From: a virus
Virus record (IMG/VR): IMGVR_UViG_3300035698_004594
Location: 1 to 33,974 of that record
DNA length: 33,974 bases
Direction: 5' to 3' (one strand)
The notes beneath the pieces were generated by a model, which saw nothing but the letters and a program-made list of their open reading frames with translations, was not told the DNA's origin and made no database searches. Position numbers and translations under genes: made by a program. Shown here in pieces: positions 10,995 through 27,990 of the stretch. Within the stretch, counting starts at the first letter, position 1, and each line of letters opens with the position of its first letter.

Positions 10995-11004
10995 GATTGA
11001 ATAA
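10543..11004 (+). CDS. Cysteine-rich lipoprotein, 153 aa
   Basis: The start is placed at 10543, where MKKILLFLICVMFIVGC forms a signal peptide with lipobox IVGC (Cys17) and AGGAAGTGG is the SD. An in-frame ATG 26 codons upstream would bury the signal. The mature part is rich in cysteines: after Cys17 come CYDPF, LCKEN, CPYRIECPKCPSGN and later YCSQCGYQ. The two CxxC pairs could bind zinc or form disulphides after export. It should be lipid-anchored outside the cytoplasm of the infected cell. Superinfection exclusion is a common role for phage lipoproteins, but I do not recognise this one. It overlaps the next gene by one base. Confidence 0.72.
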   Translation: MKKILLFLICVMFIVGCDEDCYDPFNTKAYASDCALDSNDFAEVLCKENGIDPNCPYRIECPKCPSGNWYSFIPYGEVVFGAYVERNPDGTTVVCLFNCFPDGMEGTPAGIYCSQCGYQVGTDWSIFAIDPNEFSTKCTITTDDFITLQKGIE

Positions 11005-11300
11005 TGATAAAAGTAATAGAATATGGAATATCAATGGCGGCACTCATGTTATTGTTGGCGATGGTATTCTTGATAGGCGGTTGCACTGAAGCCGCGAAGC
11101 CTACCGGTTTGACGCTAAGAAGCCAGACAATGGCATTGAATACAACTGATGGCGGTAAAAAGTGGGCGGAGGCTTTCGGTGACAATGTTGAGACGGCGCA
11201 GAGTTTTAACCTTGCGTTGTTGAATGAGGCTTATAACAACATGGATGTTCGGGTTAAGGCATTGGAGAAACTAAATACAGTTATTGACGTTAACGAGTAA
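11004..11300 (+). CDS. Small lipoprotein, 98 aa
   Basis: A hydrophobic segment (MAALMLLLAMVFLIGG, residues 11-26) leads to a lipobox LIGGC with Cys27. The mature region is ~70 aa, polar then helical. Start TAATG overlaps the previous gene, and its SD lies in the repeated 15-mer. Size and lipid anchor resemble outer-membrane spanin subunits as well as exclusion lipoproteins. The only inner-membrane coiled-coil candidate partner is far away at 31397, so a spanin role is speculative. Confidence 0.68.
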   Translation: MIKVIEYGISMAALMLLLAMVFLIGGCTEAAKPTGLTLRSQTMALNTTDGGKKWAEAFGDNVETAQSFNLALLNEAYNNMDVRVKALEKLNTVIDVNE

Positions 11301-12272: not shown

Positions 12273-13199
12273 ATGGCAGATACAATGACAACCACAGACC
12301 AGGTTGATCCAGCCGTCGGACTATACTACGAGCGCACGCTATTACAGCCTGCTACTCCGAAATATATCTACGCTGAACATGGTCAGAAATTCTCCATTGG
12401 GAGAAAAGCAGGTAACACAATTAAGATGAGGCGTTATGCTCGATATTCAGCGGCTACAACTCCACTGACAGAAGGCATTACCCCCAACGGTCACAGGCAG
12501 AGTAAGGTCGATATCCTTGCCCAGGTCAGCCAGTACGGCGATTTCGCTATTGTCACTGATGTAGTTGACTTAACGGTCGAAGACCCTAACATCACTATCG
12601 AGGTTGACAGGCAGAACGATCAGATGCAGAACACTGTTGACCAGCTTACCCGTAACGCTATTGTAAACAGTGCCTCAAGTTTGGCTTGTTCTAATGGCGA
12701 TCCAACATCAACTCTTCTCAACAAGACTGACATTGACACAGCAAGAGGGACACTTCGCGTCAACGACGCGGACTACCTTACAGAGTGGATGCGGGCTTCG
12801 ACTGGACAGGGCACAAGCCCGATACGTCCTTCGTTTATCGGTTTAGCAGATATAGACCTTGAAGATGATCTGGAAGCAGTATCTGGTTACAAGGATTCTG
12901 CAAACTATCCAGGTAACCAGAGTATTCACCCGGCAGAAAAAGGTAATACCGGCAATGTTCGCTGGCTTACCAGTTCTCAGGGTAGCGTATCAAGCGGCAC
13001 CTATTCATGTCCTATCCTCGGCAAAAGAGCCTTTGGTGTGATTGACATAAACGGTGGAAATGCCAAGGCTATCATAAAAGGCTTTGGAACAGGCGATGAT
13101 CCTCTGAATCAGAGAGCTACCGTCGGTTGGAAAATGTGGCAGGTTGCAAGAATATTGAACGATGCTTTTATTCTCGTTCTAACTTGCACTAACGGTTAA
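12273..13199 (+). CDS. Major capsid protein, N4-gp56 family
   Basis: The 308-aa protein shows the pattern of the N4-gp56 coat family (HK97 fold): an N-terminal region ending KYIYAEHGQKF, then GNTIKMRRYARYSAATTPL, TEGITPNG, a strand QYGDFAIVTDVVDLTVEDP, and a helical spine DQLTRNAIVNSAS. The C-terminus contains the A-domain-like GKRAFGVIDINGG and NQRATVGWKMWQVARILND. Hundreds of copies form the head. Its position after the scaffold is as expected. AGAAAGG is the SD. It is one of the most secure calls in the window. Confidence 0.9.
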   Translation: MADTMTTTDQVDPAVGLYYERTLLQPATPKYIYAEHGQKFSIGRKAGNTIKMRRYARYSAATTPLTEGITPNGHRQSKVDILAQVSQYGDFAIVTDVVDLTVEDPNITIEVDRQNDQMQNTVDQLTRNAIVNSASSLACSNGDPTSTLLNKTDIDTARGTLRVNDADYLTEWMRASTGQGTSPIRPSFIGLADIDLEDDLEAVSGYKDSANYPGNQSIHPAEKGNTGNVRWLTSSQGSVSSGTYSCPILGKRAFGVIDINGGNAKAIIKGFGTGDDPLNQRATVGWKMWQVARILNDAFILVLTCTNG

Positions 13200-13214: not shown

Positions 13215-13877
13215 ATGGTTAAGATAAATAGTGGAAGTTTTGTTGCTGATGGCAATGAAGTTGATGTAGAAGTTGGGTTCATTCCTGATTACGTTATGGC
13301 TTTTGAGGGAATTGAAGAAACAAATCCAGCAGTTCACCACTGGCTTAGAGAACGTATTGACTCGGCAAGTGCTGTTGGTCAATTCGGCTTTGTAAGGGCT
13401 GGAGATGGTACGCTTACAACTCACGCTGCTGCAGTCAATGGCTTTGCTCCATTGGACGAAGCAACTAATAAGATCAAATTACCTGCACCAAGCGGTGAAG
13501 GTGAGGCAGTATCGTCTACACCGAGTCCTTACACGGTTTCGCTTTCAACGGCAGCGACAGCACGATCAACAACTGCACTTGGTACGGTTCTTAAACCGTC
13601 ACTTGGTAATGAGACAGGTTATGTCTACGAATGTACTACCGCCGGAACAGGTTCAGCAGAACCTACATGGCCAACAGTACCAGGCGAGCATGTAACAGAT
13701 GGTTCGACTATATTCATTTGTCGCGAAGAGAAAGTTTTCCAGGGCAACGTCAAAGGATTTACACTTGGCGCAACCGGGCAAACTGACACTGACGAATGGA
13801 CATGGGTCGCATATCAGTTTGATAAAATAACAACGGAGGTCGATGCAGCTGATGTGGCTGCTGGTAATCCGGTGTAA
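13215..13877 (+). CDS. Virion protein, possible capsid decoration, 220 aa
   Basis: Residues 1-75 form a compact unknown domain (GFIPDYVMAFEGIEETNPAV). A middle Thr/Ser/Ala-rich linker follows, and then a recurring phage beta-domain with GYVYECTTAGTGSAEPTWP and VTDGSTIF. The C-terminus returns to the first fold (NVKGFTLGATGQTDTDEWTW). The beta-domain thus looks inserted into a smaller virion protein. Directly after the capsid gene and before a terminator, it is likely abundant; head decoration is an inference. SD AAAGGCGG. Confidence 0.6.
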   Translation: MVKINSGSFVADGNEVDVEVGFIPDYVMAFEGIEETNPAVHHWLRERIDSASAVGQFGFVRAGDGTLTTHAAAVNGFAPLDEATNKIKLPAPSGEGEAVSSTPSPYTVSLSTAATARSTTALGTVLKPSLGNETGYVYECTTAGTGSAEPTWPTVPGEHVTDGSTIFICREEKVFQGNVKGFTLGATGQTDTDEWTWVAYQFDKITTEVDAADVAAGNPV

Positions 13878-13890
13878 TTTACTAACAATG

Positions 13891-13925
13891 GGTGGTTGAT
13901 TATTCATTAGTCAACCACCAAATTT
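13891..13925 (+). terminator. Hairpin after capsid/decoration genes
   Basis: GGTGGTTGA (13891-13899) pairs perfectly with TCAACCACC (13911-13919), extendable by two AT pairs across a GT pair, followed by AAATTTTAA. The U run is short, so it may be a partial terminator or an mRNA-stabilising 3' end, which would raise capsid mRNA levels over downstream genes. Confidence 0.6.
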
Positions 13926-13939
13926 TAAGGAAAAGTATT

Positions 13940-14515
13940 ATGACAGAAAAAACTACTACAGAAGTACAGGCAGATATAAGCGGAGCTATTTCGCTTGAAC
14001 AGGAATTGAAAGGCAAAAACAAGGCGCAACTTATCCAGTATGCAGATCAGAAACTTGGTTTGAGTGTTGACGGTACTTTAGACGAGAAGGTTATCCTTGA
14101 AAACATCGTAATGTACGCCGATTCACAGATAAATGCTGCACGCGAGAAGTCAGAGAAATCAGCTAACGAAGCGGTATCTGAGAGCGATCCGTTAATGGAA
14201 GTGATATTCCGCAACCTGCAAAGCCAGAACGAAGATGTTACTTTTGCATTTGCCGGACCGCGAGGTACGTTTGGTCCTAAGAATCCAGACGGCCATAAGA
14301 AGATGCCGGTTTATCAGTTGTTCCCTGGTATGAAGATCAAACTACCTTACAGTGTAATCGAGCATCTTAGGAGCAAGGTTTTTACGCGACATATTCCTGT
14401 TTACGATGACAATACCGGTATGATCGGTGGCGTCAAGGCGATTATAACTCCGCGATTCATTTTGGACATGCAGTTTACAAAAGCACAGGCAATTGCGTTA
14501 CAGAAATTAAAATAA
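13940..14515 (+). CDS. Hypothetical virion-associated protein, 191 aa
   Basis: The start is placed at ATG 13940, preceded by AAGGAAAAG. An in-frame GTG at 13892 lies inside the terminator hairpin and is rejected. Residues 1-80 are acidic and helical, containing LKGKNKAQLIQYADQKLG (a SAP/LEM-like or peptidoglycan-binding-like short fold, uncertain). Residues 90-191 form a beta-rich domain (VTFAFAGPRGTFGPKNPDGH, KMPVYQLFPGMKIKLP) that resembles small phage structural domains. Position between capsid and beta-helix genes suggests a head or adaptor component. Confidence 0.6.
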   Translation: MTEKTTTEVQADISGAISLEQELKGKNKAQLIQYADQKLGLSVDGTLDEKVILENIVMYADSQINAAREKSEKSANEAVSESDPLMEVIFRNLQSQNEDVTFAFAGPRGTFGPKNPDGHKKMPVYQLFPGMKIKLPYSVIEHLRSKVFTRHIPVYDDNTGMIGGVKAIITPRFILDMQFTKAQAIALQKLK

Positions 14516-14535
14516 TTTAAGATCGGAGTTTTCCT

Positions 14536-16146
14536 ATGAACGGAAGAAGAATAATTCGAGAAGATGAGGTTGATACTCAAGCAGAGATTGCGCAAGAGTT
14601 TCAAAAAGTAACAGATAATCTTTATATGCTTGAGACTAAAGTCGAACAGCTTGTATCGGCTATCGAAAATAAAGGCAAGAAAATCAAGAAAGAACAGAAA
14701 GGTAATGTAACTATGAAAACACTTGCAAGCTTAATTATCATGGTATTGTTAGTATCTATTGGCTTTGCAACAGTTCCTGTCAAAGAGATAAACCACGACA
14801 CTGTAACTTCTGGAAGATTTGCTCAGGATTTACGAGGTTGGTTTGCTACCGTGAACCAGGATGTTTTGGAGGCAGGCAATCCAAATTTGGGTACCGGAGA
14901 TATCTACTACGTTGACAGTGGCGTAACGACAGCCGGCGTTGGTAATACCATGTCTTCGGCTGTAGAAACTCTTGACGAGGGAATCGCTTTATGTACAGCT
15001 AACCACGGTGATGTTATTTACGTTGCTCAAGGTCACGCTGAGACATTTACGGCGGCAGATGGTTTCGATGCTGACATTGCAGGCATTACGATCATCGGAT
15101 TAGGCAACGGAGCGGATCAGCCTGAGTTTACATTTAACCACGCTGATGCGGAAGTAGCTATCGGTGCTGCTAATGTAACAATAAAGAATTGTCGATTCCT
15201 TACAACCATAACTGCTGTCGCTATTGGCGTATCAGTTGAGGCGGCAGGCGACAACTTCACAATGATTAATTGTATTTTTCCTGAACCGGCTGCAACTGCA
15301 TCAGAGTTCGTAGATGCTATTGACCTTGCTGCCGCAGCGGATGGAGTTACAATTTATGGTTGTGAATACAGTAATTACGGTGCAGCAGGTGCGGATCACT
15401 TCCTTGAGGCTGGTAACGGTGTGAATTTGAACCTTAGCGTTATTGGTTGTAAGTTACTAGGCGACTTTGATGTTTCGGCGATATGGTCAGATACAGCAGA
15501 CCTTGATGTATTACTTTACGGTAATACGATCACTAATAACAACACAGGCGAACATTGTATTGAGTTTACAGCTGCTGCAACTGGAATTTGTGCATATAAT
15601 ATAATGTACTCAGATACTAAAACAACTACCCTTGATCCAGGTTCGGCGATTTATTGTTTCGAGAATTATGTATCAATAGACGCTGACCAGTCGGGCGTAT
15701 TGGTTCCTGCTCCTGCTACGGTTGCAGGGCAAATTTATGCTTCTGTAATGACAGCAACATCTACAACTGATAATTTATTTGATGTTGATGGTGGTGCTAT
15801 TCTAATAACAAGTCTTACTGGTATAGTAACAACACAGATAGGTAACGTAACTAATACTATAGAAATTTCGCTTGACGCTGATTCTGGCTGGTTGGACTAT
15901 GATTTTTCTACCGCGGTTGATACAGACAACGATGCCGCTGGTACTCGTTATGTTTTATCTAATGTTAATGAGGCCGTGTTTACTCCACTAGAGGGAGCAG
16001 ATGCGGGATGTACGGTACTTAATCAGCAGTTGTATTGCGGTGAAGGTATGATTATACAGACAGCAGGCGGAGCCACTACTGGTGCAATTAAGTGGTATAT
16101 CACATGGATACCTTTTGATGATGGTACAACCGTAACTGCTCAATAA
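14536..16146 (+). CDS. Right-handed beta-helix virion protein with internal signal-like segment
   Basis: From 14536 (SD GGAG) the protein is 536 aa. Residues 1-59 are a charged coiled coil. Residues 60-78 are a secretion-signal-like stretch, MKTLASLIIMVLLVSIGFA, whose Met (ATG 14713) has a poor SD. A beta-helix region follows: IYYVDSG, GDVIYVAQGHAE, GITIIGLGNG, NVTIKNCRF. These are typical of pectate-lyase-like repeats in environmental phages and suggest carbohydrate contact. The last ~135 residues form another domain ending IKWYITWIPFDDGTTVTA, which resembles the protein at 25077. Either the coil is fused to a formerly separate secreted protein, or two starts are used. A terminator follows. 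Confidence 0.72.
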   Translation: MNGRRIIREDEVDTQAEIAQEFQKVTDNLYMLETKVEQLVSAIENKGKKIKKEQKGNVTMKTLASLIIMVLLVSIGFATVPVKEINHDTVTSGRFAQDLRGWFATVNQDVLEAGNPNLGTGDIYYVDSGVTTAGVGNTMSSAVETLDEGIALCTANHGDVIYVAQGHAETFTAADGFDADIAGITIIGLGNGADQPEFTFNHADAEVAIGAANVTIKNCRFLTTITAVAIGVSVEAAGDNFTMINCIFPEPAATASEFVDAIDLAAAADGVTIYGCEYSNYGAAGADHFLEAGNGVNLNLSVIGCKLLGDFDVSAIWSDTADLDVLLYGNTITNNNTGEHCIEFTAAATGICAYNIMYSDTKTTTLDPGSAIYCFENYVSIDADQSGVLVPAPATVAGQIYASVMTATSTTDNLFDVDGGAILITSLTGIVTTQIGNVTNTIEISLDADSGWLDYDFSTAVDTDNDAAGTRYVLSNVNEAVFTPLEGADAGCTVLNQQLYCGEGMIIQTAGGATTGAIKWYITWIPFDDGTTVTAQ

Positions 16147-16155
16147 GTTTTTAAT

Positions 16156-16184
16156 GGGGTGGGTTTCGGCTCACCCCTTATTTT
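16156..16184 (+). terminator. Rho-independent terminator after beta-helix gene
   Basis: GGGGTG (16156-16161) pairs with CACCCC (16172-16177), extended by a GT and a GC pair around a six-base loop (TTTCGG), followed by TTATTTT. This is a GC-rich stem and T-rich tail in an otherwise AT-leaning gap of ~50 bp. Confidence 0.7.
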
Positions 16185-16194
16185 GAGGTTGATT

Positions 16195-16308
16195 ATGCGT
16201 GGACGCAGAGGCGATCAGGGGCACAGGCAACTAAGGAAAGACATCAAAGAGGCCAGAAAAGAAAGTAAGTCATTAAGGAAATTTAAGAAAGATAAGAAGG
16301 AGAAATAA
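16195..16308 (+). CDS. Very basic small protein, 37 aa
   Basis: MRGRRGDQGHRQLRKDIKEA is followed by a Lys/Arg-rich helical tail ending KKDKKEK; nearly half the residues are Lys or Arg. GAGG lies 7 nt upstream, and the stop overlaps the next start (TAATG), so it belongs to the operon. A nucleic-acid-binding or charge-neutralising role is possible. A similar basic microprotein is encoded at 31746. Confidence 0.6.
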   Translation: MRGRRGDQGHRQLRKDIKEARKESKSLRKFKKDKKEK

Positions 16309-17330
16309 TGGCTGCTGATGTTTTTACATGGATAATGTCGGAGTTGGTTACAGAGTTCCGGGCATTGACTGGTTCTAAGTCAACACAACAGGTAAGCGAC
16401 GCAAACGTCCATAAGTGGATAAATGACTACTACCAGAACTATTTCCCATCACAAGCCGACGTGGACGATCTGGAAGGGTTTCTAACGCAGGCGGTATCTG
16501 CAGTTGATTCAGGGGAATATGCACTTGCACAGACAGTCTTGAAACTATCTGAACCAGTTACTTTGGACGGTAACAAGATAAATTTGTATTTTGACAAAGA
16601 ACTGTTCTTTGACAGTTACCCGGAAGATGAGCAATATATCACGGAACCAGGACTTGCAATAGGGGTTAGTGATGCAAAAGCAGTTTATCACGCTGGGTTT
16701 AATTATACAATTGGCGACAATTCGTATAGCAAGGCAACGAGCGAGGTATCGTTCTCAGGTCTTAGTACGGTACCACAGAACACATACGGAGCCTTCTCGC
16801 TTACTATCGATACCGATGGGACGATAACTATCAACGAGGCAGGTTCTAATAGTACAGGCTATGACACACCTGCTCTTGCTATTGCAGGATTATCAACCGC
16901 TGCAACGAGTTCGGCGTTTATGGGTTGTGTTACAGTGATAAGCACCGCCGCGGCTGGCTTTATACCAGGAACAACGGAGCTTAGTACAGGAACGGTAACA
17001 GATACATACACTGACGGTCAACCTGAACGACGTAACAAACCGGAGGCCATATTGCAATATGGCGATGTGCTGTACGCAAGACCAAAATCGGACGATATCC
17101 ACCAGATTAAAATTGCTTATAAAAAGAGACCGGATGCAATCGAAGATGGTGCACCACTTGACGTTAAGTGGGGACCGGCTATTGTTCTCGGTGCGGCAAT
17201 GCTGTATATGAGCCGTAACGGATTAGAAATATCACAAGAAAATGTAGCTGCGTTTAATTTCAGAATGAACTCTATACGCGGTAAAAGATCAATGAGAAAT
17301 CAGGCAAGAGTTAACGAAGTAAGTTACTAA
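16308..17330 (+). CDS. Head-tail adaptor-like protein with inserted beta-domain
   Basis: The 340-aa protein begins like phage adaptor proteins, with a helical LVTEFRALTGSKSTQQVSDA and HKWINDYYQNYFPSQADVDD. It ends with the helix LGAAMLYMSRNGLEISQENV and NSIRGKRSMRN. Between residues ~130 and 235 is an inserted beta-domain of a type recurring in phage virion proteins (NTYGAFSLTIDTDGTITI, GYDTPALAIAGLS, GFIPGTTELS). The adaptor ring would sit under the portal. SD AAGGAG lies upstream, and the start overlaps the basic microgene by one base. Confidence 0.6.
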   Translation: MAADVFTWIMSELVTEFRALTGSKSTQQVSDANVHKWINDYYQNYFPSQADVDDLEGFLTQAVSAVDSGEYALAQTVLKLSEPVTLDGNKINLYFDKELFFDSYPEDEQYITEPGLAIGVSDAKAVYHAGFNYTIGDNSYSKATSEVSFSGLSTVPQNTYGAFSLTIDTDGTITINEAGSNSTGYDTPALAIAGLSTAATSSAFMGCVTVISTAAAGFIPGTTELSTGTVTDTYTDGQPERRNKPEAILQYGDVLYARPKSDDIHQIKIAYKKRPDAIEDGAPLDVKWGPAIVLGAAMLYMSRNGLEISQENVAAFNFRMNSIRGKRSMRNQARVNEVSY

Positions 17331-17341
17331 GGAGTATTACT

Positions 17342-18502
17342 ATGAAAAAGATTATGGTTTTAATATTGTTGTTATGCACAATGGTAAATGGTGCTGACAG
17401 AGTTAATGTTATTGATAAGACCGGCAGAGAGGTCAACCCAGGGGCGTCGAATCGATGGCCAGTTAGCCACGTAAACGCTGCTGCTGCCGGTGTAAAAATG
17501 TTATTGTCTGCTCCTGGTAACACTAAAAGTCATTATGTTACTGGCTTTGTTTTGACTGGTGGTGCGACGGGAGATGGTTTTTACCTATTAAGGCAAAGTT
17601 GTGTTCTTTTGAATGCTGCTGCTGACACGATTAGTCTTGCCGACGATGGCACAGATTACGATTGGGGAACAAAAGCGGATAACGGAGATTTTACCTGCGA
17701 GTTTTGGTATAACCTTGAAGCGACTACGGCAGCGGTACCTAACTTGGTTACAAGGGGCGATGAGGCTTCGGATGGTTGGAATATCGAATTAACTGCTGCT
17801 TCGTTACTGAAATTTACAATTAACGATGGCAATGCAGTAAGCGCGGCTGTTTCCATAACAGGTACGACGGCATTAGACGATGGCGAATGGCATCACATAG
17901 CTTGCGTAGTTGATAGATCGTCGGCTACAGGAATGCAGATATATATTAACGGTGAGGCTGACGCTACCGCTGTAGACCCCACTGGCGAAGTGGATACTAT
18001 GGACGGTGGATCAACTATCGTACTAACCGGCGTTGATAATGAAGAAATGTATGTTTCGACTATTGGTATTTATATTGGAAGCGGTGCTTACTTTACTGTT
18101 GAGGAAGCAAGGACACGATACAACTCTGGTATAGGTGTTAAGTACGAAGGTGACGAAACAAGCCTTATTTCAGGATTCAATACAGACGAAGGTATATCGA
18201 CGGCATGTCACGATATTAAGAACGACGCGAGCAACGTCATTACCTTGAGTGGTGCTTCGTGGGTTCCGTCAAGACAGAATGGAGCTACTGCAGAGATCAA
18301 TGAGGCAGGTGCACCGTTTAGTCTACAGGATATGATGAGAGCGGTTGGTCAGTTTCAATGCGGCATAGGAACTGCCTTTGGCGGAACCTTTGTTACTTTC
18401 CCACATCCAGTAAAGATAGGACGTAACTGTCCTTTGAATATATTAGAGACCGATGGTGCTTTTGATTTAGTTGTGTTTGGTTACACGGATAAGGTGAGGT
18501 AA
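17342..18502 (+). CDS. LamG/concanavalin-type virion protein with signal peptide
   Basis: The 386-aa protein starts with a clear signal peptide, MKKIMVLILLLCTMVNGA, then a beta-rich domain. A laminin-G-like lectin domain spans about residues 95-270, with key stretches FTCEFWYNLEA, GWNIELTA, DDGEWHHIACVVDRSS, MQIYINGEAD. C-terminal residues ~310-386 (FSLQDMMRAVGQFQCGIG, LDLVVFGYT-like end) seem to complete the first domain, so LamG is probably an insertion. A glycan-binding role is likely. The secretion signal is odd for a virion component. Strong SD AAGGAG. Confidence 0.7.
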   Translation: MKKIMVLILLLCTMVNGADRVNVIDKTGREVNPGASNRWPVSHVNAAAAGVKMLLSAPGNTKSHYVTGFVLTGGATGDGFYLLRQSCVLLNAAADTISLADDGTDYDWGTKADNGDFTCEFWYNLEATTAAVPNLVTRGDEASDGWNIELTAASLLKFTINDGNAVSAAVSITGTTALDDGEWHHIACVVDRSSATGMQIYINGEADATAVDPTGEVDTMDGGSTIVLTGVDNEEMYVSTIGIYIGSGAYFTVEEARTRYNSGIGVKYEGDETSLISGFNTDEGISTACHDIKNDASNVITLSGASWVPSRQNGATAEINEAGAPFSLQDMMRAVGQFQCGIGTAFGGTFVTFPHPVKIGRNCPLNILETDGAFDLVVFGYTDKVR

Positions 18503-18505
18503 AAA

Positions 18506-18556
18506 ATGAAAAGAATTAATTACACACTAACAGTTAAAGGAGGTATAATTAAATGA
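18506..18556 (+). CDS. Possible 16-aa leader peptide
   Basis: MKRINYTLTVKGGIIK ends in a TGA that overlaps the next ATG (ATGA). It contains the strong SD (AAAGGAGG) of the next gene. It may serve only to couple translation between 17342 and 18553. No conservation evidence is available. Confidence 0.25.
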   Translation: MKRINYTLTVKGGIIK

Positions 18557-19560
18557 AAAAGTCGAAAATTATCCATAAAGTTTTTCTATTAGTTATCCTC
18601 CTTACTGCTTTATGTCAGGGTGGTTGGGATCAGACAAAACCTTCGTCATCTACGTCGCTTAGAAACTCTAATCCTGAGATTCTAGCTAACTGGGTGGCAT
18701 TACAGACGGCAATAGGTCAGGATCATACCTTTTCTGCTGGCACACCGGACGGTAAGCATATACAGGTAACATTTACGGCACCATTAGCCGTTGCCCCGGC
18801 CGCAGTTATCGAGACAGAAGGTATTTTGTATTTACTGGACGTTGATGGCACTTCAGAATTTCACTTTGAAGATGAGGACGAGAGTACAATACAATTAACT
18901 TCTGGCGGCAGTATGGGATCTGCTACTACGGCTCTTCTTGCAAGTACAGTTACGTTTTCCGGTGATATTACAGCGAATGGTACAATTACTTTAAGTGACG
19001 GTAACGATCTTATAGGTTCGGCAACTTCTGATATTACTTTCAATACTGATAAGTTCACGGTAGCAGGGGCGACGGGAAACACGCTCGTAGCTGGAACGCT
19101 TGATGTTACAGGGGTTGCTACTGTCGGGGATGGTTCATTGACTGCAACGTCGGCAGCTCCTTCCACCGACGCTATGATCGCTAACAAGAAATACGTAGAT
19201 GATCAGGTTGGTGCTGTTACTACATGGGTACACGATTACAGTACAACTGTTTTTAATACTACATTAACATCAGCCACTACGTGGCAGGATTTAGACTTAT
19301 CGGCAACAGTTGGGGCAAACAATGCCCTATGTTTCTTTAGTTTAACGTCTTCTGCCAATATAAGAGTATCTATAAGAACAAAAACTGATGAAACTTTAAC
19401 CGTTGGTTCTCCTGGTGAAAATCATGCATCATGGAGTCAAGTTAGTGATAATAGCTTCACAGCATTATTCGCTGCAACAGATTCAAGCGGTTTCGTTCAG
19501 ATATATGGCGGTGATAATTCTTCAACTCTTACTATTACGCTAATAGGCTATATAAACTAA
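18553..19560 (+). CDS. Tail fibre-like protein with signal peptide, 335 aa
   Basis: An N-terminal signal-like segment (KVFLLVILLTALCQGG, residues 9-24) is followed by WDQTKPSSSTSLRNSNPEI, the kind of N-terminal attachment sequence found in phage fibres. Then comes a repetitive Thr/Ser/Gly-rich beta region (TFSGDITANGTITLSDGNDL, GTLDVTGVATVGDG), a short helix with DAMIANKKYVDDQV, and a C-terminal beta domain. This layout fits a trimeric fibre shaft and tip. It overlaps the next gene by one base. The secretion signal is unexpected, as with neighbours. Confidence 0.62.
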   Translation: MKKSKIIHKVFLLVILLTALCQGGWDQTKPSSSTSLRNSNPEILANWVALQTAIGQDHTFSAGTPDGKHIQVTFTAPLAVAPAAVIETEGILYLLDVDGTSEFHFEDEDESTIQLTSGGSMGSATTALLASTVTFSGDITANGTITLSDGNDLIGSATSDITFNTDKFTVAGATGNTLVAGTLDVTGVATVGDGSLTATSAAPSTDAMIANKKYVDDQVGAVTTWVHDYSTTVFNTTLTSATTWQDLDLSATVGANNALCFFSLTSSANIRVSIRTKTDETLTVGSPGENHASWSQVSDNSFTALFAATDSSGFVQIYGGDNSSTLTITLIGYIN

Positions 19561-21890
19561 TGTACACACCATACCCAATCTTGAATATGAGAGAAGGAAA
19601 ACGGACGGACCTTGATCCCTGGATACTTCCTTCTGATGCTTTTGAGACACTTCGTAACTGTCATTTAAGGGATGGTGTTCTTGAGAAGCGAAGGGGATAT
19701 TCGTTATTCGGTCAAGTAGTAAAGGTCGTGACCTCGACCAAAGCCCCGACGTTATCGACTAATCCGGTTATGGGTATTTTTAACCATCTGTCGAGCACAA
19801 CGGAAAATCTCTTAATTGCAGATAAAGAACGGGTTTGTAAGTTCATGTCCGATCGGGTTTCTAATGTTGACATTACGGCATTTGCGAATGTAGACGGCAG
19901 CAATGTTACCGTGACGGCGGCCGGACATAGCTTAGCGGATGAGGATATCGTAACGATAAGCGGGACAACCAGCTACAATGGTACTTTCCGTGTTCACGAT
20001 AAAGCTACTAATACTTTCCAGATAACAGATACTTGGGTTGCTAACGATGCTACAGGCTCAGTAACACAGGAAGCATTCCTCGATCTTACAAAGAACAAGA
20101 TAAAGTTCAAAAAAGATACATCAATGACACAACCGTCTACTGGTATTGTTATCGAGGAATCTACTAATGATGGATATGGTGAAATTGCAACAAGTGGTTT
20201 GTTTACTGACTGGGGGACATTTGCTGCAAATACTGCTTATGGCACTATTGTTTTTAAGAATGGAACATATAGTGGAACTTTCGAAGACGGAAAAACTTTA
20301 CAATATTCCACAATCGCTTATACCAGTGGTGGAACACATGAGGTTGTTGCTGGCGATACACTTACAGGAGCAACAAGTGGTAAAACGTTCATAGTTACAA
20401 AAGTGACATTAACAACAGGAACGTGGGCTGATGGTAACGCAGCGGGAACATTCCATTTAAGACTACAATCTGGAACATTGCAGTCAGAGAACCTTAACGA
20501 AGGAGCGAATGGTAATGTTTGTACAATAGGCGGAGATTCTACCGTTGTTGTCGTTGGATTGTGTAATGGAAGTAATGGTGACGAATCGTTTTCCGGTGAT
20601 AATACTGATTTCTTTATGACTGAGAATTGGGATCACGACGGAGACCATGAAAACCTATATATCACAAACGGTAATGATCCTATCCAGATTTACGACGGAA
20701 ATCATTTAAGGCAATTAACAGTCGATATAGGTACCGACGCCAACAGGCTTGGGGTTAATGATCTTGGTTCTGCTTTGTTGGTTGTTGTTTTCAAAGAACG
20801 AATTATTGTATTCAATACAATCGAAGATGGAACAAGTTATTATCAGCGGGCAAGGTGGTGTGGAATAAAGACTCCGTTTAGCTGGCCTACTGCTAATTTC
20901 AAAGACGCACCGACCTCCGATACTATTAAGTCGCTGGATTTTATAGGTGAGGAATTATATATCTGGTTCGAGCGGAGTGTATGGCGATTCACCTGGACTG
21001 GTGACTCAGCTAACCCGTTTGAATGGGAGCGGGTTGATAACTCAAATGGAACAGTAGCACAAATGAGTTTAGCGACTCAGGACGACAAACAATATGCTTT
21101 GGGGACTGCCAGGATCAATATGCTTGACGGCAGGGATGTTAAGTCGGCAAGTGGTAAGATACCGGACTTTACATTAGACTGGAACCAGGATTCGTTGCCG
21201 TATAGCAATAGTATAATATTGGAGGAAGAACGACAATTACAGATGTCTTACACTTCCGAAAATGCTTTATCTGACGACAGCGATCAGCCTGACGATGGTA
21301 ATGTTTATGCCGATAGTTTGTTGGTTCTTAATTATGAGGATTTTAGTTATGCCACATATGGTATGCCAGTTCATACTTTTGGATTTTCGTCTATCGAAAG
21401 CGATCTTACATGGGACGACATAACGGATGCGTGGGAAGATATCGATTGGTCATGGAACGCTGGACAGGCAAAGTCTGGTTTTCCAACAACTCTTTTCGGC
21501 AATCATGTTGGTAAGGTATTCCAGATGAATTATAGCGGGGCCGATGACGGTTCTGATATTGAGTTTGAGGCTATAAGTGGTCAGTGGAATCCATTTGTTA
21601 AAAAAGGCCATAAGGCAAAACTCGGTTACATTGATTTCTTAGTCGATGTCGATGCCGATGTTACTTTCGATGTTCTTAGCTACCTCAATTCTGATAGTAC
21701 GGAATTTCAGACGATGACAGTTACCTGCGATGCGGTTAATGGCTCTGACAGTATTGTCTGGAAACGGGTTGATGTTTTTGCAACTGCTGATTTTCACAGA
21801 ATCGAGATAACAAATTCGGCAAGTAATAACAGACCTCGTATCCATGCGATAGTACCTTACTTCGAAGAGGTTGGTGGGAGACTAATTTAA
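19560..21890 (+). CDS. Large tail structural protein (tail tube/nozzle candidate), 776 aa
   Basis: The N-terminus REGKRTDLDPWILPSDAFE, with NCHLRDGVLEKRRGYS, is a pattern I associate with tail or connector proteins of environmental podoviruses. Residues ~100-165 look like the FCCH-type beta-barrel inserted in many phage proteins (VTAAGHSLADEDIVTISG, YNGTFRVHDK). Another inserted beta-domain follows (~210-330, TGTWADGNAAGTFHLRLQSG). The middle has propeller-like strands (NLYITNGNDPIQIYDGNHL, ELYIWFERSVWRFTW). Size and position between adaptor and fibre genes suggest a tail tube/nozzle role, by inference only. Confidence 0.55.
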   Translation: MYTPYPILNMREGKRTDLDPWILPSDAFETLRNCHLRDGVLEKRRGYSLFGQVVKVVTSTKAPTLSTNPVMGIFNHLSSTTENLLIADKERVCKFMSDRVSNVDITAFANVDGSNVTVTAAGHSLADEDIVTISGTTSYNGTFRVHDKATNTFQITDTWVANDATGSVTQEAFLDLTKNKIKFKKDTSMTQPSTGIVIEESTNDGYGEIATSGLFTDWGTFAANTAYGTIVFKNGTYSGTFEDGKTLQYSTIAYTSGGTHEVVAGDTLTGATSGKTFIVTKVTLTTGTWADGNAAGTFHLRLQSGTLQSENLNEGANGNVCTIGGDSTVVVVGLCNGSNGDESFSGDNTDFFMTENWDHDGDHENLYITNGNDPIQIYDGNHLRQLTVDIGTDANRLGVNDLGSALLVVVFKERIIVFNTIEDGTSYYQRARWCGIKTPFSWPTANFKDAPTSDTIKSLDFIGEELYIWFERSVWRFTWTGDSANPFEWERVDNSNGTVAQMSLATQDDKQYALGTARINMLDGRDVKSASGKIPDFTLDWNQDSLPYSNSIILEEERQLQMSYTSENALSDDSDQPDDGNVYADSLLVLNYEDFSYATYGMPVHTFGFSSIESDLTWDDITDAWEDIDWSWNAGQAKSGFPTTLFGNHVGKVFQMNYSGADDGSDIEFEAISGQWNPFVKKGHKAKLGYIDFLVDVDADVTFDVLSYLNSDSTEFQTMTVTCDAVNGSDSIVWKRVDVFATADFHRIEITNSASNNRPRIHAIVPYFEEVGGRLI

Positions 21891-22187
21891 TTGGAATACC
21901 TAAAAGACACAGAGCGATTTGGAACGAGTTATAAGGAAGGCGAGGAATTAGAAGGTTTCTTTGTGAAGTTGATATCCTTTATGGAAAGAAGAATATTCAA
22001 TAAGGTATCTAAAAGACTGAATTACTTATTAATGCGGGTAAACGATCAGAAAGTTGAGATCGTAGCTGATGGGAACGATGATAAGAACGAAAATGATAAT
22101 TGGCGAATAATTGAGAGTAGTGGCGATTTATTAGTACAGAAAAGAATATCAGGGACATGGACTACGGCAGAAAAATATCATGGTTAG
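21891..22187 (+). CDS. Hypothetical tail-associated protein, 98 aa, TTG start
   Basis: The frame opens directly after the preceding stop at TTG 21891, with GGGAG ten bases upstream. The N-terminal helical part (KLISFMERRIFNKVSKRLNY) is followed by an acidic loop and a C-terminal strand set NWRIIESSGDLLVQKRISGT, a pattern seen in short phage proteins next to fibres. It overlaps the fibre gene start by 31 nt, an unusually long overlap. Confidence 0.6.
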   Translation: MEYLKDTERFGTSYKEGEELEGFFVKLISFMERRIFNKVSKRLNYLLMRVNDQKVEIVADGNDDKNENDNWRIIESSGDLLVQKRISGTWTTAEKYHG

Positions 22188-25075
22188 TATTGCTCTTAGT
22201 CGGAACGTGCTTTGGTACGTTTGGCGATAAAGAACTCAAGGTCGATGGTGCTAAATGGATCTGGAACAACAACTCCCAGACGTTTAGTCTCGCCGCCTCT
22301 GCTACGATGTCAGAAAGTGTTAATTACATATGGCCGGTAGCTGATGCGACATCAGGTGGCCAGGCTTTACTTTCCAATGCTTCCGGCGTCCTGAGTTGGG
22401 GCATTCCAACTACCTCGGCAGCTCATAACTTATTGTCAGGTACCCACGATGCAACTACGTCGGACGTAAATCAAGGTGATATTGTTTTTGGTAACGCAAC
22501 GCCAAAGTGGGACGATTTAGCTATCGGAGCGACAAACGAGATTTTAAGAGTATCATCCGGTTTACCAGACTGGCAGGCAACGACTTTCATTACTGAGCTG
22601 GGGACTATCACAACAGGAGTATGGAACGCAACAGTTATAGACATAAATAGCTATACAAACTTAGCTGTTACTTCTCCAATAGTTTTAACAGACGATACTA
22701 TCAGCGTTACAGTATCGAAGGATATTGTAACCACGTCACCTCTTACAGTGAATGCAGGGGCTAATCTTGACAATGTTATAATCGGAACAGACGCGGATAT
22801 AACCATTGCAATTGCTGACGCCGTTAATGATGGATCAACAAAAGGAGCGGCGTCGTTTGACAATACAGACTTTGGAGCTGCCAGTGGTAACATAACAATT
22901 AACGACGATGGCCATTCACACACGGCGTCTTCTGTTTCCGGTTTCCTTATTGATGCTGGAACGGTGATCGATAATAGCATACCAGCTTTTGATGGTACCG
23001 ATGGCGTTACTACGCAACCAACAGGGGTAACAATAGATGATTCTGATCATATGGATGGCGTAGTAGCTTTGGATATTAACTACGCTGCCTACTCCGTTAC
23101 AGGCGCAGACATATTTGATGCCGCTTTAGATTTGGAATACACTTACGCTTTCGGGATTAACGATATTCCTGTAGGCATGAGAGGCCATGTAGTCAACTCT
23201 GGCTCTGCTACAGGGGTAAACGCTCACCTGGTGGGAACCTTAGGCTCTGTAGTTGATACCGCAAATGGTGCCATAAATATGTTTGGCTTAGAGGGCAAGG
23301 TTGCGGCTTTAGGCTCTGACGGTGGCCATGTAGGCGTTGTAGCCGAAGTTAAATGGCAAGGTGCGGACTTTACATCCGTTGACGCCGCGAGGATTATTGC
23401 AGGCCATCACAGCATCTTAGAGATTACAACAAACGGTACGACACCTCACGCAAAAGGGATAGCAATCCAATACTCTGCCGCCCCGATTATTGGCGGTGGC
23501 GCAGGGACAAAATTTAGCTTCTTCGGTCGAGATCCACTTTATATAGGTTCAAACGCAACTGCCGCTAAGGGTATCACAATAGGCCATAACGACACAGACG
23601 GCTCTATCACTTGTTCTTCAGGCGATTTGAATATAACTACCGCAAGCAATGAGATTAGCATGGGCGCTGGAAACCTCACAACCACAGGAACCTTAGATTG
23701 TCATGGAGTAGCATTAAACAGAAATGATATTACTGGGATTCAGTCCTTAGTGAACTGGACAGGTGGACACGCACTAACAATAGGAGAGACATCAAGCACA
23801 ACAGACTATCTGAAAAAAGCTGGTGGAGTTGTAACGGGCAATGTTAAATTTAACGATAATGTTAAATTATATTTTGGGACTTCAGATGATTTAGAGATTT
23901 ATCACGATGGCTCTGATGCTTATGTCACAAATAATACTGGTGATTTGAATATTACAGGCGGCACAAAATTTAACGGATCAAACGTTTCTGGGATAGATGC
24001 TTTAACTGCAAGTTCACTAACGGTTGGTAACATAACAGTAACGGCCAATTCTGATATTACATTGAGTGGCACTGGTCATGTAACGTCAGGCTCAGAGGGT
24101 TTCATAGTTGGAACTCTTACTGTTACGGACGGTTCAATAGTTGATTCTGATGGCTCAATTGCTTTTGGTAGCACTAATTTATCAGGCGTAGGCACTATTG
24201 GCAGCGGTGCAATTACAAGCACAGGTATTATAACTCCATCTGTTACTACGGCAGGTACGACAGACATATTGAATCTAAAGTCTGATGCAACAGGTAATGG
24301 GGTCGGCGTTCAGCTTTTCTCTGGCGTAGCAGGTGGCGACAGACCTATTTTTAGGATATTTGGAAGTGGCTGGGCTGGTGCTGTTAAACAGGCAGATATA
24401 TCTATTGACTCATTTACCAGACTTAAATTTTCTGGTGATATTTTAGGATTATTGTTTGAGGGAAATATACAAACCACAAGCAATAAAGACATAATATTCG
24501 ACGCATCATCATCTATGAGAATGAAGTGGTATTCAGTTTCAAGCGTAGATCATTTTCAGATAAGCACCCCAGTTGGAGCGACAAGTGGAACTGGTTATAT
24601 TACTATTGTTGACAAGGATGATAAAACACATGGCAACAGAAGACCTGCTGGCGTAGCAACTGACCCAACATTGAGGCTATATGCTTCTGGAACAACTGCA
24701 ATAACCGAATACGTAGAAATGTACCACGATGGTACTAATGGAGTTATCGACGTTGGCACAGGCTTACTTGATTTGCCAGAAGTGAATATAAATGGTTTAA
24801 ATTTACAGACTACCAGAATAACATCCTCACCTTATGCTGTTCTTTCAACAGACGATGAGATTTTTGTTGACACTGATAGCGTAGATATAACGGTTAATCT
24901 TGCGGCAGGTGTTGACGGAAAGAGACTTAGAATAATAAATACAGGAAGTTCAGGTAATACAGTAACGGTATCACCTAACGGCGCAGAAGCTATACTTGGA
25001 AGCACAGACGATGTACTACTTGCTGATGGCGATGTTATTATAATTGTTTATGAAACCACGGAAGGATGGTGGTAA
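22157..25075 (+). CDS. Long tail fibre with N-terminal signal peptide, 972 aa
   Basis: The first residues, MDYGRKISWLVLLLVGTCFG, form a signal-like segment. The rest is a Gly/Thr/Ser/Asp-rich repetitive beta shaft with recurring units such as GNITINDDGHSH and GTLTVTDGSIVDSDGSIAFG. It also has the fibre motif LYFGTSDDLEIYHDGSD known from marine phage fibres. A compact C-terminal domain follows (residues ~885-972; SPYAVLSTDDEIFVDTDSV, KRLRIINTGSSGNTVTVSPN), the likely receptor-facing tip. The start lies inside the preceding gene with a weak SD (CAGGGA), so the exact N-terminus is uncertain. The next gene starts two bases after the stop. Confidence 0.78.
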   Translation: MDYGRKISWLVLLLVGTCFGTFGDKELKVDGAKWIWNNNSQTFSLAASATMSESVNYIWPVADATSGGQALLSNASGVLSWGIPTTSAAHNLLSGTHDATTSDVNQGDIVFGNATPKWDDLAIGATNEILRVSSGLPDWQATTFITELGTITTGVWNATVIDINSYTNLAVTSPIVLTDDTISVTVSKDIVTTSPLTVNAGANLDNVIIGTDADITIAIADAVNDGSTKGAASFDNTDFGAASGNITINDDGHSHTASSVSGFLIDAGTVIDNSIPAFDGTDGVTTQPTGVTIDDSDHMDGVVALDINYAAYSVTGADIFDAALDLEYTYAFGINDIPVGMRGHVVNSGSATGVNAHLVGTLGSVVDTANGAINMFGLEGKVAALGSDGGHVGVVAEVKWQGADFTSVDAARIIAGHHSILEITTNGTTPHAKGIAIQYSAAPIIGGGAGTKFSFFGRDPLYIGSNATAAKGITIGHNDTDGSITCSSGDLNITTASNEISMGAGNLTTTGTLDCHGVALNRNDITGIQSLVNWTGGHALTIGETSSTTDYLKKAGGVVTGNVKFNDNVKLYFGTSDDLEIYHDGSDAYVTNNTGDLNITGGTKFNGSNVSGIDALTASSLTVGNITVTANSDITLSGTGHVTSGSEGFIVGTLTVTDGSIVDSDGSIAFGSTNLSGVGTIGSGAITSTGIITPSVTTAGTTDILNLKSDATGNGVGVQLFSGVAGGDRPIFRIFGSGWAGAVKQADISIDSFTRLKFSGDILGLLFEGNIQTTSNKDIIFDASSSMRMKWYSVSSVDHFQISTPVGATSGTGYITIVDKDDKTHGNRRPAGVATDPTLRLYASGTTAITEYVEMYHDGTNGVIDVGTGLLDLPEVNINGLNLQTTRITSSPYAVLSTDDEIFVDTDSVDITVNLAAGVDGKRLRIINTGSSGNTVTVSPNGAEAILGSTDDVLLADGDVIIIVYETTEGWW

Positions 25076-25076
25076 T

Positions 25077-25499
25077 ATGAGTAGATTTGGATTCGTAGAG
25101 GCATTAGGTAAGAATAAGCTTATACAGGATATAACTTTCAATAACAGCACAGTACAGGAAGACGTCTTTACTGTTACTGGTGACGTTTTAGTTAGAATAA
25201 TACCTGTTATAACTACCGGCTTAGTACCTAATACAACTGCAAATATACGACTTGGAATATTAGGTTCTACTGATGCTATGATAGTAGATAGTGTATCCTC
25301 AGATTTAGACGCAAGGAGAATTTGGGTTGACCAGACTCCTGATAATGACGTTGAGCCAGTTGAGAGAATAAGAAGCTATATTATCACAGATGGCCAAGAT
25401 GTCATATTGACATTAAGTGCCCAAATCAATACTGGCGTAATAAGATTTTATTGTTTCTGGACTCCGCTGTCCAGTGATGGAAAGGTGGTAAACGCATAA
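25077..25499 (+). CDS. Small virion protein, 140 aa
   Basis: The start is set at ATG 25077 behind GGAAGGATGGTGG. An in-frame upstream ATG at 25044 would overlap the fibre tip. The single beta-rich domain (EDVFTVTGDVLVRIIPVIT, ANIRLGILGSTDAMI, GVIRFYCFWTPLSSDGKVV) is similar in pattern to the C-terminal domain of the beta-helix protein at 14536, so it may be a free-standing copy. It overlaps the next gene by one base. Confidence 0.65.
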   Translation: MSRFGFVEALGKNKLIQDITFNNSTVQEDVFTVTGDVLVRIIPVITTGLVPNTTANIRLGILGSTDAMIVDSVSSDLDARRIWVDQTPDNDVEPVERIRSYIITDGQDVILTLSAQINTGVIRFYCFWTPLSSDGKVVNA

Positions 25500-25933
25500 T
25501 GGCCGAACATATAGCAGGTAGAGCAAATAACTATGACAAACTTGACGTAATAGAAGAACATCTTCATTCAATATCTAAGGTCTACCCAAGCCTTACCGCG
25601 GGTGTGTCTATAACTTCTGGAGGCGTATGGACGCTTGGTAGTTTCACTGAGCTTATTCCAATCAATACCGTCCCAAAAGACTTTGATATACATTTTTTCG
25701 TCGTAGAAAGCGTGACCGATGATGAGACTTATGAGATAGTTTTTTACAATGTAACCACGGAAATATCAAGATTCAGATGGACGAGTCAATTAGCCGCTGG
25801 TGGTAGGGAGATTTCTATTCCATTTCCTATCCTCATGCAGATTCAGGCGAAGAACTCTCAGATTCAAATGAAACTTGCATCGTCCGGTGATACAGAAACG
25901 GTTGTTTTATCGGTAATATACCACAGTTATTAA
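25499..25933 (+). CDS. Hypothetical virion-associated protein, 144 aa
   Basis: N-terminal residues 1-28 are helical and charged (RANNYDKLDVIEEHLHSISK). The remainder is a beta-sandwich-like domain (ITSGGVWTLGSFTELIPINT, FDIHFFVVESVTDDETYEIV). There is no signal or membrane segment. Start overlaps the previous stop (TAATG), with GGAAAGGTGG upstream. It is probably a fibre accessory or baseplate-like piece. No family named. Confidence 0.62.
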   Translation: MAEHIAGRANNYDKLDVIEEHLHSISKVYPSLTAGVSITSGGVWTLGSFTELIPINTVPKDFDIHFFVVESVTDDETYEIVFYNVTTEISRFRWTSQLAAGGREISIPFPILMQIQAKNSQIQMKLASSGDTETVVLSVIYHSY

Positions 25934-25944
25934 TAGGAGAAATC

Positions 25945-26304
25945 ATGTTAAAGAAAATAGCAGTAATAATTTTAATCTTAACAGCAGTATTGTTGGCAGT
26001 CGTAGTTGACAGCAGAGTCGTTTCAAAGGCTACTCCGATCACTATTGTCATAAGGCCAAATAAGACGCATCAGGTAGCTGACGTTAATGGTATCAAGGAA
26101 ACGGCTTACTACACACAGATGACTATCAGGTACAGCCTGATGGACGCTAATGATGTCCACCTGCTCTATAAGAACAGCATACACACCAGCCAGGACACAA
26201 ACGAACCGTTGGATTTAGCGGGGATCGCTACACTAATGGGTAATATTCGCAAAGCCTTCCAGCTGGATAAGTTGGCTTTTTCAGGAGTTGACATTGGAGA
26301 CTGA
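25945..26304 (+). CDS. Membrane-anchored small protein, 119 aa
   Basis: One N-terminal hydrophobic segment (KKIAVIILILTAVLLAVVV, residues 3-21) is followed by a soluble domain of ~95 aa with beta strands (ITIVIRPNKTHQVADVNG, YYTQMTIRYSLMDANDVHLL). Topology suggests a signal anchor with the domain outside the cytoplasm. AGGAG precedes the ATG. It overlaps the next gene by 11 nt. Function is unknown. Confidence 0.6.
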   Translation: MLKKIAVIILILTAVLLAVVVDSRVVSKATPITIVIRPNKTHQVADVNGIKETAYYTQMTIRYSLMDANDVHLLYKNSIHTSQDTNEPLDLAGIATLMGNIRKAFQLDKLAFSGVDIGD

Positions 26305-26745: not shown

Positions 26746-27990
26746 ATGGGCGGTTTATTTGGTGGCGGCGATAGTGGTGGTTCTGAGGGAAGGGTTGAAC
26801 AACACGAAACATTAACTGCTGGACAAAGAGAATTATTGGATGCTTTGACAGGTCAGTTAACACCACAGGTCGGACAGGGCGTTACCCCATTTCAGGCTAT
26901 CCGTCAAGGTGAGGTTCCGTTTGGCTCGTTACAACAGCAGGCATTAGGTCTTGCCGGTGGTTTCGGCGGCGGTATTAGTTCTGGATTAGATGCTTTTAGT
27001 GGATTCGATCCATCACAAGGCCAACGATTCTTGGGACAAGCCGATCAAGCTTTACAGACAGGGCTACAGGGTTTCGATCCTCAGAATATCTTAGATGCAC
27101 TGGAACCGGGTAGACAGCTTGCTATGAACACGTTCCAACAGGATATTGTACCAGACCTACTTGAAAAGTTTGGCGCAACCAGCGGGCCGTCAGGCTCCTT
27201 AAACAAAGCGTTAAGTGAGGCAGGTGCAGACTTGTCATTAGGATTAGGTGCTCAAGCCGGTCAATATCTCGGTCAAGCCGCTTTACAGGCTCCTGGCCAA
27301 CAGCTACAGGGAGCAAGTTTAGCAAACCAGCTTGCCGGTGCACCCGGTAACTTAGCTCAACAGGGATTAGGATTAGGAAGCGGTGGCTTACAATCGTTAC
27401 TCGGAATAGGCGGAGTAGAACAAGCCTTGCCAGCAGGTCAGGCACAGGCTGAACAATCGCGATTCTTAGAATCACAAGGTTATTCTAATCCGTGGCTGTC
27501 ACAATACGGACCATTGGCATTAGGCACACAAGCATTTGAGAATGTAGCTTTCCAGGGATACAGGGAACCGAGTATGTTTGAAAAGATATCACCGTTACTT
27601 GGCGGTATAGCCACTGGAGTTGGTGCTTACTACGGAGCAGGAGCGTTAGGGGGACTCGGAGGCGGAGCGGCAGCAGGCGGAGCCGGTTCTACAGCGTCAG
27701 GGTTAGGTAATGCACTTAGGTCTTCGCCGTATTTCTCTGATGAACGGATCAAAGAGAATATCAAGCCGATTGATAACGCACTTGACAAACTCAAAAAACT
27801 CAAAGGCAATACTTACAATTACATATTCGATAAAACAGGACAACGCAACGGCGGTATTATGGCGCAGGATTTAGAGAAGGTATTGCCCGATGCAGTATTT
27901 GAGGTCGAAGGCGTTAAGGTTGTTAGATACGATGCTGTTATGGGACTATTAATCAATGCAGTCAATGAACTGGCTGAGAAAGTGAGTTAA
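26746..27990 (+). CDS. Gly/Gln-rich virion protein with C-terminal S74 chaperone domain
   Basis: Residues 1-330 are dominated by Gly, Gln, Leu and Ala with helical repeats and a glycine-zipper run (GVGAYYGAGALGGLGGGAAA), typical of internal or ejection proteins. The last ~85 residues are a Peptidase_S74 intramolecular chaperone: FSDERIKENI with the catalytic Ser-x-x-x-x-Lys spacing, GIMAQDLEKVLPDAV, and YDAVMGLLINAVNELAEK. In tail spikes this domain trimerises the protein and then cuts itself off at the serine. Here it follows a non-fibre-like body. SD GAGG precedes ATG 26746. Confidence 0.75.
   Translation: MGGLFGGGDSGGSEGRVEQHETLTAGQRELLDALTGQLTPQVGQGVTPFQAIRQGEVPFGSLQQQALGLAGGFGGGISSGLDAFSGFDPSQGQRFLGQADQALQTGLQGFDPQNILDALEPGRQLAMNTFQQDIVPDLLEKFGATSGPSGSLNKALSEAGADLSLGLGAQAGQYLGQAALQAPGQQLQGASLANQLAGAPGNLAQQGLGLGSGGLQSLLGIGGVEQALPAGQAQAEQSRFLESQGYSNPWLSQYGPLALGTQAFENVAFQGYREPSMFEKISPLLGGIATGVGAYYGAGALGGLGGGAAAGGAGSTASGLGNALRSSPYFSDERIKENIKPIDNALDKLKKLKGNTYNYIFDKTGQRNGGIMAQDLEKVLPDAVFEVEGVKVVRYDAVMGLLINAVNELAEKVS

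Follow-up and report, generated by a model that had tools for sequence, protein, structure and literature searches.

By standard teaching, the assembly of tailed phages takes place entirely in the cytoplasm. Virion proteins synthesized with Sec signals are known from the filamentous phages of the M13 type, which assemble at or across the inner membrane, but their virion is unrelated to that of the phage considered here, whose portal, terminase and tailed-phage-type capsid were recognized by PHROG matches in the linear IMG/VR record IMGVR_UViG_3300035698_004594 (33,974 bases, analyzed over its full length and hereafter called the window). The tail genes of the window (Table 1) resemble those of the Kuravirus SU10 in the nozzle fold and in the gene order fibre-nozzle-next gene. 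As described in the main text of the SU10 report, the short tail comprises the adaptor gp11, the short fibre gp16, the nozzle gp17 and the needle gp18, the N-terminal part of the fibre docking on the nozzle (PMC9509320). Whereas the term "signal peptide" has 0 occurrences in that main text, the fibres of the group described here, and in four genomes also the nozzle, are signal-bearing. Phage genes with Sec signals have likewise been described for Porphyromonas gingivalis phages, where they occur on major capsid proteins (which the authors expect to be cut by a prohead protease), on spanins and on five genes without known function, and not on identified fibre or nozzle families (PMC10367356). 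The signal-arrest-release (SAR) endolysins also use Sec (PMC7143992), but these are lysis enzymes, unlike the tail parts discussed below.

Among the papers listed by full-text searches of an open-access library, none was recognized as reporting signal peptides on tailed-phage fibres or nozzles. The tail type itself is known; as far as these searches show, its fibres and nozzle have not been described with Sec signals, and the nearest report concerns other gene classes (PMC10367356). Here we describe an uncultured group of short-tailed phages in which the tail fibres, and in some members the nozzle, carry what look like genuine export signals in their sequences.

Signal-like N-termini in the tail region of the window

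The first-pass annotation of the window had described five proteins of the tail region as beginning with signal-like segments, and all five N-termini were present at the positions given. Those at 17342 (MKKIMVLILLLCTMVNG/ADRV, the slash marking the predicted cut; ctaaggag upstream of the start), 18553 (MKKSKIIHKVFLLVILLTALCQG/GWDQ; aaaggagg), 22157 (MDYGRKISWLVLLLVGTCFG/TFGD; a weak aggg) and 14713 (MKTLASLIIMVLLVSIGFA/TVPV, inside the open reading frame (ORF) 14536; a ribosome-site-like agaaagg) each consist of a basic n-region, a hydrophobic core and a small-residue end, and look like classical Sec signals cut by signal peptidase I (SPase I). The fifth, at 25945 (MLKKIAVIILILTAVLLA-VVVD; aggag upstream), was ambiguous, as its long hydrophobic run could equally fit a membrane anchor. 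A lipobox cysteine at the predicted cut was absent from the four clear window signals and from the fibre family when these were read by eye. Disulphide formation was rejected as a general reason for export, since no general enrichment of cysteine was seen among the window's signal-bearing proteins, the mature parts of which contain 10 (14713), 6 (17342), 1 (18553), 2 (22157) and 0 (25945) cysteines.

The signal at 14713 is preceded in frame by a coiled-coil stretch. In L002, L010, L012 and L021 (designations of related loci), the coiled-coil stretch and the 14713-type signal lie in different frames, which argues that 14713 is a real start, and a gene-calling artefact was rejected here on that ground. 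Positions 14536 to 14769 possibly encode two products from one gene, with translation also starting internally; the long form read in frame from 14536 would be the second. Among the relatives, the coiled coil and the signal-bearing protein are in frame in the window, L004, L006, L009, L011 and L018, and form separate ORFs in L002, L010, L012 and L021.

Distribution of the signals among relatives

The capsid, the nozzle and the protein at the adaptor position served as queries for relatives and yielded a family of uncultured phages; one fixed signal rule was applied to all distinct homologues. Applied to Escherichia coli K-12 proteins, with classes assigned by hand, in part from product names, the rule passed 9/10 exported, 2/15 inner-membrane and 1/44 cytosolic proteins. 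The main count excluded 9 loci (controls, cultured or distant records) and any ORF whose start lay 3 bases or less from the end of its contig; it retained the near-copies L023/L046 and L034/L037, as well as L106, which counted as rule-negative.

Signals recurred on 22/45 homologues of the fibre 18553 and on 13/14 of the 14713-type proteins, as opposed to none of the 416 distinct head, packaging and late homologues (terminase 0/44, portal 0/64, scaffold 0/71, capsid 0/76, 13215 0/61, 13892 0/58, 26288 0/14, 26746 0/28). The nozzle family showed a signal in 4/38 homologues and the gene after the nozzle in 5/21, one of the five being a mis-hit. Six of 66 members of the adaptor-position family also met the rule; five of them align only from profile position 95 on and do not represent the adaptor N-terminus, and the sixth comes from the distant L060 group, in which domains of the SU10 adaptor family do stand behind signals, so that a general absence of adaptor export is not proposed for that group. 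For 17342, 22157 and 25945, the profile search found no homologue.

In a first set, from which 24 loci (duplicates, fragments and others) were left out, 1/370 head, packaging and late homologues and 16/33 fibres were positive (Fisher p 1e-18), the single positive, gene 9176 (1/47), being a likely false positive. Within the window's capsid clade, where 18/22 loci were usable (the other 4 are without gene 13892), the rule was met by 49/95 tail-region ORFs vs 10/171 head-side ORFs (Fisher p 1.8e-17), and some of the head-side matches were small lipoprotein-like ORFs. Three cultured phages with related capsids had a signal in 0/35 coding sequences after the capsid gene.

Placement of the signal before the fibre docking domain

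The protein at 18553 was assigned as a fibre by homology, and a signal-less homologue in L024 contains a Pfam Phage Tail Collar domain. Signal-less members of this family start at a conserved WDxxKP domain with only 1-4 residues before WD (M-WD, MA-FD, MTT-WD or MATN-WD), while the signal-bearing members read signal-[G/A/S]-[A/G]WD; that is, the signal stands directly before the WD domain, and the docking domain begins within 1-2 residues of the predicted cut. A close pair illustrates this placement: L041 reads MKRVFIGLSIILFAVTVYA/ANTRTWNASYELLPADGDNISAG, and the signal-less L024 reads MTTWDSSFETIPANSDNISAG. The predicted -1 residue was A, G or S in 15/15 fibres vs a background of 12% elsewhere in these signals (p 2e-14; the count leaves out L041, the 16th signal-bearing fibre), whereas the -3 position, with an allowed residue in 13/15 vs 72% background, was uninformative. 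Pairwise identity was 25% for the signals and 47% for the next 30 residues, as would follow from retention of the signal pattern alone.

Exported proteins favour fewer positive residues behind the signal. In comparisons of 16 signal-bearing with 16 signal-less fibres, uncorrected for kinship, the first 18 motif residues contained 1.25 vs 2.62 K/R (p 0.016), and overall K/R content was 4.95% vs 6.65% (p 0.0009); the difference in net charge was not significant (p 0.08). Throughout the fibre family, a ribosome site and start precede the signal. Starts downstream of the hydrophobic segments, which the first-pass annotation had named as a refuting outcome, are thus unlikely, and a gene-calling artefact was rejected for the fibres on account of the placement of the signals and the ribosome sites.

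Concerted signals on the nozzle and its neighbour

The protein at 19560 is the tail nozzle, and the phage fits the SU10/P22/T7 short-tail nozzle type. The nozzle-family profile matched the VP1 nozzle in the Protein Data Bank (PDB) with an E value of 2e-16, and the best Foldseek matches of the AlphaFold model of window 19560 (mean predicted local distance difference test (pLDDT) score 59.5, higher in the propeller part) were the SU10, VP1, Pa223, P22 and T7 nozzles (E 8e-20 and weaker), sharing a beta-propeller fold. The nozzles of Vibrio phage VP1, P22 (gp10) and T7 (gp12) are thus similar in fold and profile to 19560 and its relatives, and we know of no signals on any of these three.

The nozzle of the window is signal-less, but those of L027, L066, L124 and L133 bear signals, with the predicted cut sites ...CSVVKA/QEYEPFLI, ...CSTAFG/QAGYEPFL, ...CTIVRA/QEYQPFLI and ...CTTVFG/ADYEPYPI, respectively. 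Each of these genomes also has signals on its fibre and on the gene that follows the nozzle. The signal status of the nozzle agreed with that of the next gene in 20/20 genomes in which both genes were found (4 both, 16 neither; exact p = 1/4845). Among the 35 genomes with nozzle and fibre found, 4 had both signals, 12 the fibre signal only, 19 neither and 0 the nozzle signal only, and in 9 genomes with a signal-less nozzle, the window included, a short signal-less next gene is followed by a signal-bearing fibre. Three entries of the concordance count were set by hand: the next gene of L019 as without signal, because the rule match was an internal position in ORF 15841-17532 and the gene at 17517 has no signal, and the fibres of L106 (which failed the rule) and L019 (missed by the profile, and hand-set also in the capsid tree) as signal-bearing by eye.

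In a FastTree phylogeny of the nozzle, read as topology only, L133 grouped with L002, apart from L027, L066 and L124, which puts nozzle signals at two separate places of the tree. The start of the L133 nozzle is supported by the overlap (atga) of its ATG with the stop of a small upstream ORF (14935-15105), a hydrophobic one between fibre and nozzle that appeared holin-like by eye. In L027, an F5/8 type C (discoidin-like) domain (Pfam E 5e-10) is inserted in the signal-bearing nozzle (15023-17119). What is directly observed is thus that the signals are present and conserved, where exactly they are placed, and that they occur together.

Relatives and hosts

In a capsid tree of 54 rows, 22 of them without the fibre gene, fibre signals appeared in the window clade, L002 and L041, and the signal-less L033/L045 adjoin the signal group. 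Together with the signal-less L020 inside this group, they make both gains and losses likely. The relatives at 46-49% capsid identity lay in Desulfatibacillum (an isolate and a metagenome-assembled genome (MAG)), a Pseudodesulfovibrio MAG and a Deltaproteobacteria MAG. These nearest named carriers (Desulfobacterota and the Deltaproteobacteria MAG) have no fibre signals; the Pseudodesulfovibrio MAG, L025, has a signal-bearing protein at the 14713 position. Two surveys of 395 genomes each, which returned mostly the same positives, found no closer relative and no host for the window clade.

Tail gene layout of the window

The features of the capsid and tail region are summarized in Table 1. The first-pass annotation had attributed beta-helix, LamG and fibre domains to the five proteins, and this held for LamG in 17342 (a Pfam match) and for the fibre character of 18553 (by homology) and 22157 (by local matches). 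At 14713, AlphaFold confidently modelled a beta-helix at residues ~60-300, but the Foldseek matches were weak (best E 1.7e-3) and the Pfam beta-helix match was sub-threshold (E 0.05); in MW202647, tblastn detected a homologue without a signal, encoded immediately behind the capsid gene. The protein at 16308, which has no Pfam match and no clear PDB match, is inferred from its position to be the head-tail adaptor. The virion-like character ascribed to all five proteins is tentative in the case of 25945.

Elsewhere in the window, two small lipoprotein-like ORFs (10543-11004 and 11004-11300) lie between the portal and scaffold genes and are possible spanin/lysis genes. The late region encodes a glycine/glutamine-rich protein (26746-27990) with a C-terminal Peptidase_S74 (endosialidase chaperone) domain (Pfam E 2e-16), and the record ends in a low-complexity stretch (33695-33974), the minus strand of which reads repeated SQSHRH.

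Table 1. Features of the capsid and tail region, in window coordinates.
Feature	Position	Strand	Basis and remarks
Major capsid protein, no signal	12273..13199	+	phrog_1357, E 6.6e-34; signal in 0/76 homologues; query for finding relatives
Coiled-coil extension upstream of the 14713 signal, same frame	14536..14712	+	In some relatives an ORF of its own, in a different frame
Predicted Sec signal peptide of beta-helix protein, cut after ~residue 19	14713..14769	+	Signal in 13/14 distinct homologues
Mature part, predicted beta-helix protein	14770..16146	+	AlphaFold, Foldseek, tblastn
Protein at head-tail adaptor position, no signal	16308..17330	+	Alignment; gene order vs SU10
Predicted Sec signal peptide	17342..17392	+	N-terminus inspection, homologue survey
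LamG-domain protein between adaptor position and short fibre	17393..18502	+	Pfam Laminin_G_3, E 4.6e-17
Predicted Sec signal peptide of fibre	18553..18621	+	N-terminus, family placement, -1 residue
Fibre protein, N-terminal WDxxKPA...IRxN domain, directly upstream of nozzle (short-tail-fibre position)	18622..19560	+	Alignment
Tail nozzle, no signal in the window	19560..21890	+	Profile and Foldseek; signal on homologues in L027, L066, L124, L133
Small protein after nozzle, no signal, needle position in SU10	21891..22187	+	Signal status tracks that of the nozzle across genomes
Predicted Sec signal peptide of large fibre	22157..22216	+	N-terminus inspection
Large fibre-like protein	22217..25075	+	tblastn: local similarity to tail/fibre proteins of phages
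Small protein with signal or membrane anchor	25945..26304	+	N-terminus only; no relative found

Proposed assembly route and alternatives

The segments are, with high confidence, genuine cleavable signals, and we are nearly as confident that the proteins bearing them are virion parts. We infer export, cleavage, presence in the virion, and the time and place of joining. Taken as a whole, the explanation that cleavable Sec signals on the outer parts of an SU10/P22-like short tail lead to their export and later joining appears somewhat probable, while completion of the tail outside the cytoplasm, taken on its own, seems evenly balanced. Capsid, scaffold, portal and later gene products would remain cytoplasmic, and the fibres, together with the nozzle and the adjacent protein in a subset of genomes, would be exported and lose the signal, so that the mature N-terminus would be the docking domain with which signal-less relatives start. 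The exported parts would stay in the periplasm until a holin opens the inner membrane, and would then be joined to the DNA-filled head. The border between the compartments would vary by lineage, lying between nozzle and fibre in the window and between adaptor and nozzle in L027, L066, L124 and L133. Since proteins in contact with one another share the presence or absence of a signal, starting at the tip and moving inward, and head and late genes never carry one, export followed by joining outside would be the simplest account. Of the four options raised in the first-pass annotation, assembly of fibres outside after lysis fits best, and the present results reach further in that the nozzle and its neighbour are signal-bearing in four relatives.

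Several observations weigh against this route. The nozzle of the window lacks a signal, so that exported fibres would meet it across a membrane, and no tailed phage known to us exports parts of its tail through Sec. In L005, L013, L017, L019 and L020, no ATG immediately precedes the 14713-type signal, which shares its frame with the coiled coil and may there be produced only within the long form. The fibre of L020 lacks a signal although this locus falls within the signal clade, and all signal-bearing genomes except the L025 MAG are metagenome contigs for which no host is named. The signal rule, moreover, also passes 2/15 E. coli inner-membrane proteins. Finally, signals precede three SU10-adaptor-family proteins in the L060/L061 group, whose capsid is 28% identical; this would break a clean rule that the adaptor stays inside unless these are paralogues. 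In L061, three consecutive signal-bearing proteins with SU10-adaptor-family domains (13257-16524) were noted, one with FG-GAP repeats.

Among the alternatives, it is unlikely that the signal-bearing proteins are exported effectors rather than virion parts, acting in cell coating, in receptor masking or removal, or as lysogenic-conversion surface proteins. LamG and beta-helix folds are frequent in surface proteins, 17342, 22157 and 25945 lacked homologues in the profile search, and L025 has a lipoprotein-like gene between the adaptor position and the fibre; the surface coating and receptor removal raised earlier may apply to these three window proteins individually. The fibre and nozzle families, however, belong to the virion in relatives that lack signals or in tails of solved structure, and the nozzle and next-gene signals change together. 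Furthermore, no second nozzle copy was found in the L027 and L066 records, and effectors would leave the signals on their only nozzle copy unexplained.

A less probable alternative is that the signals are weak or conditional, such that the proteins are drawn to the inner membrane and the tails assemble on its cytoplasmic side, export being incomplete or absent. Very hydrophobic signals do favour co-translational targeting, and in the window this arrangement would spare exported fibres from having to meet a cytosolic nozzle, but the conserved SPase-like site, the fewer positive charges behind it and the concordance between partners point to real translocation.

That the segments are uncleaved N-terminal virion anchors or plugs, for instance hydrophobic helices inserting into the host membrane at ejection, is highly improbable: ejection machinery does contain hydrophobic segments, 25945 resembles an anchor and the long in-frame form of 14536 would give an internal membrane helix, yet virion anchors, also suggested in the first-pass annotation, are disfavoured by the uniformly small, SPase-like -1 residue of the fibres despite the scarcity of A/G/S in their signals, by docking domains starting immediately behind the predicted cut, by homologues that do without the segment, and by the occurrence of the same pattern before unrelated proteins (fibre, nozzle, LamG and beta-helix).

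Implications for tail assembly

We tentatively propose, at slightly less than an even chance, a split-compartment assembly in which heads are filled in the cytoplasm, Sec exports the fibres (in some lineages together with the entire nozzle complex), and these parts mature in the periplasm until opening of the inner membrane allows them to be joined. The border could shift from fibre to nozzle, with interacting partners switching compartment together. The signal status of interacting tail proteins provides a sequence-level test applicable across viral databases, and for annotation it is a warning that a signal peptide does not imply a non-virion protein. If the proposal is true, a tail would be buildable from parts kept across a membrane, which would bear on the timing of lysis and assembly and on fibre folding.

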